This document shows positions 20,132 through 22,455 of a DNA stretch of 52,278 nucleotides, one piece after another. Positions within the stretch are counted from its first letter, which is position 1; each line of letters opens with the position of its first letter. The notes beneath the pieces are model-generated. The model was not told the DNA's origin and made no database searches. It saw only the letters and a list, made by a program, of their open reading frames with translations. Source of the stretch: an uncultured SAR86 cluster bacterium (GTDB lineage Bacteria; Pseudomonadota; Gammaproteobacteria; Magnimaribacterales; AG-339-G14); assembly GCA_902514645.1 (NCBI GenBank), contig CABXRO010000008.1, positions 1 to 52,278 on the forward strand, given 5' to 3'. Both the position numbers and the translations under genes were made by a program.

Positions 20132-20988
20132 TATTTGAACTCTTTATCATCCCACCAAGGATAAAATTCAGGCAAATCTTTGCTTACCTTCCCAGGAAAA
20201 TTAGGTTCTCTTTTCTCTAAAAAAGACATAACACCTTCACTTGCTTCTCCAGTTTTACCGAGTGAATAAACACCTCGTGAATCAATTTTATGGGCCTCCA
20301 TAGGATGATCGGCTCCCAACATCTTCCATAACATTTGTCTAATTAAAGTGACTGATAGACTCGAAGTCGCCTCTACAAATTCTGCAGCTATTTCTTCTGC
20401 TCTTACAAGTAATTTATTTTCAGAAGTAATTTCTGTTACCAACCCTTTATTCAAAGCTTCTTCAGGCATAAAAATTTTTCCTGACAAACACCACTGTAGA
20501 GCGTTAGAAATTCCTACAATTTTAGGAAGAAACCAACTTGAACATGCTTCAGGAACAATACCTCTTTTAGCAAAAACAAAACCAAATTTAGCTTTATCTG
20601 AGCAAATCCTCACATCCATCGGCAAGGTCATAGTTACGCCAACACCTACAGCTGCTCCATTTATTGCTGCGATTAATGGTTTTTTGAAGTCAAATAATCT
20701 TAAAGTAAGTATCCCTCCGGTATCTCTTTTTACATCAGTATCTGACTTAGCTTTATCGGACATATCGAACGTATCCTCGCCTGATGATAAGTCTGCTCCA
20801 GCACAAAAGGCTTTTCCAGATCCAGTAAAAATAACTGCTCGAATATCATCATCTTTTTCAGCCTCATCAAGAAGCTCCAAAATGTCTTTCAACATCTGAC
20901 CCGAGAAAGTATTCATTTCTTTTGGCCTATTGAAGACTACTGTTAAAACTTTATTTTTTAATATAGTTTTTAAACTTTCTAAATCTTT
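20131..20988 (-). CDS. Enoyl-CoA hydratase/isomerase family protein
   Basis: Crotonase-fold enzyme, 285 aa from the chosen start. The oxyanion-hole segments FCAGADLSSGEDTF and AAINGAAVGVGVT are clear, and IVPEACSSWFLP carries the catalytic Glu. The frame is open to an ATG at 21030, but the first 14 codons would overlap the likely metY promoter and start 4 nt from the riboswitch. The ATG at 20988 follows a purine-rich AAGAGA stretch and begins MKDLESLKTI, closer to family starts, so it is preferred. It is the first gene of the operon with the carboxyltransferase and aldehyde dehydrogenase. The substrate is unknown. Confidence 0.88.
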   Translation of the reverse strand, partial: KDLESLKTILKNKVLTVVFNRPKEMNTFSGQMLKDILELLDEAEKDDDIRAVIFTGSGKAFCAGADLSSGEDTFDMSDKAKSDTDVKRDTGGILTLRLFDFKKPLIAAINGAAVGVGVTMTLPMDVRICSDKAKFGFVFAKRGIVPEACSSWFLPKIVGISNALQWCLSGKIFMPEEALNKGLVTEITSENKLLVRAEEIAAEFVEATSSLSVTLIRQMLWKMLGADHPMEAHKIDSRGVYSLGKTGEASEGVMSFLEKREPNFPGKVSKDLPEFYPWWDDKEFK

Positions 20989-21020
20989 CATTTTTTTTTC
21001 TCTTTTTTGGTATTTTTGTG

Positions 21021-21026
21021 TATATT
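21021..21026 (+). promoter_or_regulatory. Candidate -10 box for the metY riboswitch transcript
   Basis: TATATT at 21021-21026 places a transcription start at about 21033, directly at the 5' edge of the SAM-II aptamer. The -35 is not clear. Its position supports the shorter start for the divergent enoyl-CoA hydratase. Confidence 0.4.
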
Positions 21027-21033
21027 GCATTTA

Positions 21034-21086
21034 TAGCGTTGATTTAACCGACTTGCAAACGCTTTATAAATTTTGCTAAATAGGAT
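21034..21086 (+). ncRNA. SAM-II riboswitch aptamer controlling metY
   Basis: The segment matches the SAM-II aptamer known from marine metX/metY leaders: P1 stem AGCGT (21035-21039) with ACGCT (21059-21063), the invariant loop TGATTTAACCG...TTGCAA (21040-21058), the linker TTTATAAA, and the 3' pseudoknot strand GCTAAATAGG (21075-21084). It binds S-adenosylmethionine. The downstream gene makes homocysteine, so SAM should switch it off. The pseudoknot strand can alternatively pair with 21094-21103 as an antiterminator (see the terminator entry). SAM-V shares this core; the single aptamer plus terminator fits SAM-II better. Confidence 0.92.
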
Positions 21087-21091
21087 TTTTT

Positions 21092-21125
21092 AACCTGTTT
21101 AGCGAAAGCAAACAGGTTTTTTTTT
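21092..21125 (+). terminator. Riboswitch expression-platform terminator with competing antiterminator
   Basis: The stem 21092-21100 pairs with 21110-21118, continues as GC/GC around a GAAA tetraloop with one bulged A, and is followed by a run of nine T (21117-21125). The 5' arm (CCTGTTTAGC, 21094-21103) is complementary over 10 bp, with one G-U, to the aptamer strand GCTAAATAGG (21075-21084). SAM binding should hold that strand in the pseudoknot and free the terminator; without SAM the antiterminator can form. Confidence 0.85.
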
Positions 21126-21147
21126 AAATAATTTATGGAGATTAATT

Positions 21148-22455
21148 ATGGCATATGAAGGAAAAAATTTAGAGACAATAGCTCTGCATGCAGGTTGGAG
21201 AAATGATGAAACTACTGGATCAGTAGCTGTTCCTATCCACCAAACTACAAGTTATCAGTTTAATGATACTGCTCATGCAGCAAGCCTTTTTGGTTTGCAA
21301 GAATTCGGAAACATTTATACCCGAATTATGAACCCTACTTGTGACGTACTTGAGCAGAGAATGGCAGCTTTAGATGGAGCAGCAGCAGGACTGGCTGTCT
21401 CTTCAGGACAAACAGCTTCAGCTTATTCGATTCAAAACGTTGCGAGAGCAGGAGATAATATTGTTTCTTCATCACATTTGTACGGCGGAACATATAACCA
21501 GTTTAAAAATAACCTAAAAGAAATGGGAATTGAAGTTAGATTTGTTGACCCAACAGATCCAGCTAATTTTGAAAAAGCTACTGATGACAAGACCAGAGCT
21601 TATTTTGCAGAAACTCTGCCTAATCCCAAGCTTCAGATATTTCCAATAGGCGAAGTCGCAGAAATAGGTAGAAAGCATGGCATTCCTTTAATCGTAGATA
21701 ACACTGCTGCTCCAGTGCTTTGTCGTCCATTTGACCATGGTGCTGCAATTACAACTTATTCAACTACGAAATATATTGGCGGACATGGAACAACTATCGG
21801 AGGTCTTATCCTTGACGGTGGTAATTTTGATTGGGGTGAAGCTGGAGCTGATAGACAGCCAGCGTTAAATACTCCTGATCCATGTTACGGTGGAGTTGTC
21901 TGGGATGAACAGGTAACTAAAAACATGGGTTTACCCTTTGCATATCTACTTAAGCTAAGAACAACACTTCTTAGAGACCTAGGTGGAGCTATGAGTCCTT
22001 TCAACGCTTGGATGTTTATTCAAGGATTGGAGACACTTCCTTTGAGAATGCGCGAACATGCTAATAATGCTCAAAAAGTTGCTGAATTTTTAGCTTCTAA
22101 CAAAAAAGTTCAATCAGTGACTTATCCTGGTCTCTTTGAAGGCGCTGAAAAGGAAAAAGCAGATAAATACATGACCGGCGGGTATGGTGCTCTTATTGGA
22201 TTTGAGTTACCCGGTGGAAAAGAAGCAGGAAGTAAATTTATTGATTCTTTAGAGCTTCTTTATCACGTTGCTAATATTGGAGATTCAAGATCACTTGCAA
22301 TTCATCCAGCAACCACAACTCACAGTCAACTTGCTCCAGAGGAGCAGTTGTCTGCTGGTGTAACTCCCGGATATGTAAGATTATCTATAGGTATTGAAAA
22401 TGCTGAAGATATCATTGCAGATATTTCTCAAGCTATAGATAAAGCTTCAAAATAA
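21148..22455 (+). CDS. metY: O-acetylhomoserine aminocarboxypropyltransferase (sulfhydrylase)
   Basis: 435-aa PLP enzyme of the Cys/Met metabolism family, making homocysteine from O-acetyl-homoserine and sulfide. The start resembles other MetY proteins (LETIALHAGWRNDETTGSVAVPI). PLP-binding segments are YTRIMNPT and SSGQTA, and the Schiff-base lysine is K208 in YSTTKYIGGHG. The length of about 430 residues separates MetY from the shorter MetB/MetZ enzymes. Shine-Dalgarno TGGAG lies 9-13 nt ahead of the ATG. The SAM-II riboswitch upstream gives feedback by the pathway end product, and a strong terminator follows, so it is monocistronic. Confidence 0.95.
   Translation: MAYEGKNLETIALHAGWRNDETTGSVAVPIHQTTSYQFNDTAHAASLFGLQEFGNIYTRIMNPTCDVLEQRMAALDGAAAGLAVSSGQTASAYSIQNVARAGDNIVSSSHLYGGTYNQFKNNLKEMGIEVRFVDPTDPANFEKATDDKTRAYFAETLPNPKLQIFPIGEVAEIGRKHGIPLIVDNTAAPVLCRPFDHGAAITTYSTTKYIGGHGTTIGGLILDGGNFDWGEAGADRQPALNTPDPCYGGVVWDEQVTKNMGLPFAYLLKLRTTLLRDLGGAMSPFNAWMFIQGLETLPLRMREHANNAQKVAEFLASNKKVQSVTYPGLFEGAEKEKADKYMTGGYGALIGFELPGGKEAGSKFIDSLELLYHVANIGDSRSLAIHPATTTHSQLAPEEQLSAGVTPGYVRLSIGIENAEDIIADISQAIDKASK

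Follow-up and report, generated by a model that had tools for sequence, protein, structure and literature searches.

The window, by which we mean the whole stretch of DNA that was analyzed (52,278 nt), comes from a SAR86-group genome (G000) that is about 70% complete in 36 contigs, and the nearest relatives of its metY gene are annotated as belonging to SAR86 cluster bacteria. The putative switch lies in an intergenic region of 156 bp, flanked by an enoyl-CoA hydratase gene (minus strand) and metY (plus strand). The features of this region, with the evidence for each, are:

Start codon (ATG) near 20991, minus strand: enoyl-CoA hydratase gene (PRK08260 family)
21021-21026, plus strand: predicted -10-like box, TATATT (sequence)
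21035-21084, plus strand: SAM-II aptamer (RF00521)
21035-21063, plus strand: P1 stem of 6 bp (21035-21040 paired to 21058-21063) and the loop it closes, which carries conserved GATTT and CTTGC (RF00521; covariation)
21075-21084, plus strand: GCTAAATAGG, which provides both the 3' strand of pseudoknot P2 and the 5' half of the predicted antiterminator (P2b covariation, antiterminator pairing)
21094-21103, plus strand: CCTGTTTAGC, shared by the terminator (as its 5' arm) and the predicted antiterminator (as its 3' half) (pairing, folding, conservation)
21094-21125, plus strand: predicted intrinsic terminator, consisting of a hairpin (21094-21116) and a U-tract (21117-21125) (folding, conservation)
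21137-21140, plus strand: Shine-Dalgarno sequence of metY, GGAG, outside the switch (sequence)
21148-22455, plus strand: metY, encoding O-acetylhomoserine aminocarboxypropyltransferase (homocysteine synthase), 435 aa (TIGR01326, 598 bits; cutoff, 495)

The window, scanned against Rfam at default settings, gave four tRNAs only, with no entry at the metY leader. When the Rfam scan was run with an E-value threshold, the covariance model RF00521 (SAM_alpha, the SAM-II class) matched positions 21026-21100 of the plus strand over its whole length (E = 2.7e-6), with a score of 33.9 bits that is slightly under the gathering score of 36 bits. In a search of the entire G000 genome with this model, the metY leader was the only match better than an E value of 0.4. 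An earlier note, made from the sequence alone, had assigned the leader to SAM-II, named metY as its target, and proposed a comparison of the SAM_alpha and SAM_V models. Both assignments held: SAM_alpha matched, and metY, which exceeds the TIGR01326 cutoff, is a methionine-related gene directly downstream of the aptamer. The SAM-V model gave no match at E ≤ 10 in positions 20950-21200, and we rejected that identity. We also rejected the SAM-II long loop (RF01726), which scored 22.3 bits (cutoff, 44; E = 0.035), below RF00521. The region's remaining weak Rfam hits (JA04, STnc480, PyrR, and snoRNAs) fell far below their own cutoffs. We found no second aptamer in tandem within the window. Positions 21075-21084 find their pseudoknot partners at 21053-21056 (P2a) and 21048-21049 (P2b). 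The GATTT, TTGC, and GCTAAA elements of the family consensus are all present, and they are invariant or nearly so across SAR86 leaders.

The sequence suggests that transcription starts near 21033, two bases before P1, in line with what has been described for SAM-II leaders in general (PMC1273637). The earlier note had placed a -10 box at the edge of the aptamer. TATATT is indeed present there, and the block around it, TGTGTATATT/TGTGTATCAT, recurs upstream of P1 in close relatives, but the window has no consensus -35 element and a promoter scan reported no site. In more distant relatives, -35-like sequences (TTGATA/TTGAAT) occur at suitable spacing.

Downstream of the aptamer, the hairpin CCTGTTTAGCGAAAGCAAACAGG (21094-21116; -10.4 kcal/mol) has a CCTGTTT/AAACAGG stem plus GC/GC, a single bulged A, and a GAAA loop; nine T residues (21117-21125) come directly after it. 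A simple consensus scan did not list a terminator at 21094-21125; the bulge, which breaks the continuity of the stem, is the probable reason. The 5' arm of this hairpin is also complementary to the 3' strand of P2. Specifically, GCTAAATAGG (21075-21084) and CCTGTTTAGC (21094-21103) can form 10 contiguous pairs, nine Watson-Crick and one U-G, and the predicted antiterminator helix extends to 13 to 14 pairs. Hairpin, U-tract, and a mutually exclusive antiterminator together make up a predicted intrinsic-terminator platform. The Shine-Dalgarno sequence lies beyond the predicted structures, and in the metY leaders of relatives a GGAG-type site is likewise found 3' of the U-tract. The 10-bp complementarity (exact in its coordinates) and the position of the ribosome site outside the switch were thus both as the earlier note had described them. 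A 10-pair run, G-U pairs allowed, arose in 273 of 20,000 dinucleotide shuffles of positions 21085-21147 (1.4%), so the single sequence is only moderate evidence for the antiterminator, and conservation over 34 leaders, described below, is the stronger argument.

We then folded the leader, which is more stable than its shuffles (z = -3.0). The minimum free energy (MFE) structure of the whole free leader contains P1 and the antiterminator (-21.3 kcal/mol). When positions 21075-21084 were kept unpaired, as a proxy for a ligand-stabilized P2, the leader instead folded into P1 and the terminator (-18.4 kcal/mol). These calculations include neither pseudoknots nor SAM, so the energies back the logic of the switch rather than measure it. 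To that extent they bear out in silico the claim that ligand binding favors termination. In stepwise folding, the antiterminator became possible from base 21103, 13 bases ahead of the complete terminator, whose 3' arm ends at 21116.

These two competing pairings suggest how the leader may operate. At low SAM, the free 21075-21084 strand would pair with 21094-21103 once that segment had been synthesized; the terminator would thereby lose its 5' arm to the antiterminator, and polymerase would read through into metY. At high SAM, the bound ligand would lock 21075-21084 into pseudoknot P2 and leave 21094-21103 free to pair with 21110-21116, so that polymerase would halt in the U-tract (21117-21125) and yield a terminated RNA of ~90 nt. 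On the basis of the covariance-model match, the folding, and the conservation, we consider it highly likely that the leader is a SAM-II riboswitch that switches metY off through intrinsic termination.

To characterize conservation, we aligned 34 metY-family leaders, namely, that of the window and those of 33 relatives, one of them from a record labeled Gemmatimonadales. P1 was paired in 100% of cells, with double-sided changes at three of its six pairs. One of the two P2b pairs covaried (C-G to U-A in five leaders), while P2a was invariant; P1 and the pseudoknot therefore both show the covariation expected of SAM-II. One pair of the terminator stem changed on both sides, from U-A to C-G, in 10 leaders, and every leader carried at least seven T residues in the U-tract. 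For both paired cells and covariation score, the combined structure ranked above all shuffled and all slid controls, a comparison to be read with caution since the sequences are related. Complementarity between the P2 strand and the terminator arm was retained in all 34 leaders (8 to 10 of 10 pairs), and 93.2% of antiterminator cells were paired, versus 18 to 53% when the helix was slid.

The antiterminator showed no double (compensatory) change across the 34 leaders. Such covariation is hardly possible, because each of its strands has a second partner: the aptamer constrains the 5' strand, and the terminator constrains the 3' strand. The antiterminator is therefore unproven by covariation and is suggested by complementarity, by the order of synthesis, and by one conserved feature, TTAGC. 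In the L053-L060 clade, AGC is unpaired in the terminator loop, yet TTAGC is kept in nearly all members, as would be expected if it serves the antiterminator. Holding the P2 strand led to the terminator in 34 of 34 leaders, but the antiterminator pair that we examined was missing from the full-length MFE in ~20 of the 34, and in those leaders the antiterminator could work only kinetically. The missing pair, the absence of compensatory change, and the score under gathering all count against regulation by SAM-dependent termination. A kinetic mechanism may be the more general reading across the 34 leaders. That the SAR86 metY switch is purely kinetic, with an antiterminator that is frequently less stable than another fold and an outcome set by the time taken to transcribe the ~19 nt that separate the aptamer's end from that of the antiterminator, is possible, although we hold this version only tentatively.

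Not every leader conforms to the SAR86 architecture. At least one metY leader from the SAR86 order (L130) has an aptamer without an evident terminator, and the platform is therefore not universal. The leader from the Gemmatimonadales-labeled record (L073; DEAF01000027.1) is of the SAR86 type with a duplicated terminator tail and precedes a metY with 81% identity; this record is probably a misbinned SAR86 contig. Meanwhile, alphaproteobacterial metY leaders (L071-L072, L074-L080, and L093) use a different SAM-II platform, in which CTGGGAGA-like and TCTCCCAG-like arms enclose a small terminator.

It is conceivable that the aptamer works mainly on translation or RNA stability and that the hairpin and U-tract form a constitutive attenuator. 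The crystallized SAM-II RNA from the Sargasso Sea is thought to act on the Shine-Dalgarno sequence, and SAM-II RNAs of S. meliloti are stabilized under high SAM (PMC9373788); an antiterminator that lacks covariation and is missing from the MFE of many relatives would fit as well. However, the GGAG site lies ~50 nt past the aptamer and outside the predicted structures, and every leader keeps a P2 strand that can pair with the terminator arm (8 to 10 of 10 pairs), which makes this explanation improbable. Less probable still is a degenerate or non-SAM relative of SAM-II with another ligand or none. The score slightly below gathering would be consistent with such an RNA, but scores of about 30 to 40 bits characterize the SAR86 metY leaders as a group, the GATTT, TTGC, and GCTAAA elements are kept nearly invariant, and the product of the downstream metY, homocysteine, is a methionine precursor. 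Finally, an ordinary terminator-like hairpin that lies beside a SAM-II-like sequence by chance, for which the 1.4% of shuffles with a 10-pair run could be cited, is contradicted by an architecture that recurs with covarying stems in 34 leaders, and we give it almost no credence.

Searching 199 genomes of the order with RF00521, we found matches at E ≤ 1e-3 in about 109 (manual count of the table), while only 14 passed the gathering score, so annotation at the gathering cutoff misses most SAR86 SAM-II copies. Some genomes of the order, but not G000, carry a distinct SAM-II-like RNA, TCGTGATTTGATCCTATTGCCGCGA...GCTAAAACGGAA...TTCC.AGGATTTAA (L124, L127-L129, L132-L137, L167, and L170-L195). This variant reaches only 25 to 34 bits with RF00521, has no U-tract, and occurs as an exact pattern in 23 of the 199 genomes; its loop ATCCT is complementary to both GGA(A) and a downstream AGGAT. 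It precedes homocysteine-methyltransferase-family genes, metH, and a membrane desaturase/hydroxylase-like gene (PF00487). Paired, near-identical copies of the variant, 108 to 112 nt apart, stand before the desaturase-like gene in L118 (1337-1411 and 1445-1519) and L119 (1310-1384 and 1422-1496); double SAM-II arrangements are already known (PMC9481103). In eight genomes, a coordinate comparison placed SAM-I/IV on the same strand no more than about 60 nt downstream of SAM-II (L120 and L122, and coordinates in G033, G037, G069, G108, G128, and G147). The L120 and L122 tandems precede a small membrane-protein-like gene that looks OmpW-like by eye. Seven such tandems were reported earlier (PMC9481103).

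The SAM-II class (metA element, SAM_alpha, RF00521) was first described in 2005 (Corbino et al., PMC1273637), and that description includes intrinsic terminators after many aptamers as well as transcription that begins a few bases upstream of P1. The earlier note had contrasted a transcriptional SAM-II switch with the known ones. That contrast does not stand: terminators commonly follow SAM-II aptamers and already figured in the first account of the class (PMC1273637), and the Shine-Dalgarno mechanism is that of the crystallized Sargasso Sea RNA (PMC9373788). Like the elements of Corbino et al., the SAR86 leader combines P1, pseudoknot P2, the loop segments, and a predicted start a few bases before P1 with an intrinsic terminator between P2 and an open reading frame for sulfur amino acid metabolism; it differs in its gammaproteobacterial rather than alphaproteobacterial host and in its score slightly under gathering. 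A transcriptional case has been studied at S. meliloti metZ, where Northern blots detected a terminated RNA of ~100 nt (PMC9373788). There, too, SAM-II and an intrinsic terminator precede a gene for a homocysteine-forming enzyme, and the terminated RNA is about as short as the one predicted for SAR86, but the organism and terminator sequence are different, and the Northern-blot support belongs to metZ. In "Ca. Pelagibacter," also a marine oligotroph, SAM-II and a terminator precede a methionine gene in SAM-II/SAM-V tandems (PMC2704228, PMC11508383, PMC9481103), whereas no SAM-V or other second aptamer follows the SAR86 metY SAM-II.

The SAR86 metY leader is a textbook-clear further example of an already described type of switch. 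Through it, transcription of metY, a gene for methionine synthesis, would very probably be stopped when S-adenosylmethionine is sufficient. The leader provides a compact, fully readable SAM-II transcriptional switch from an abundant, mostly uncultured marine group, and it is short enough to make a simple model for studying how SAM-II switches during transcription.
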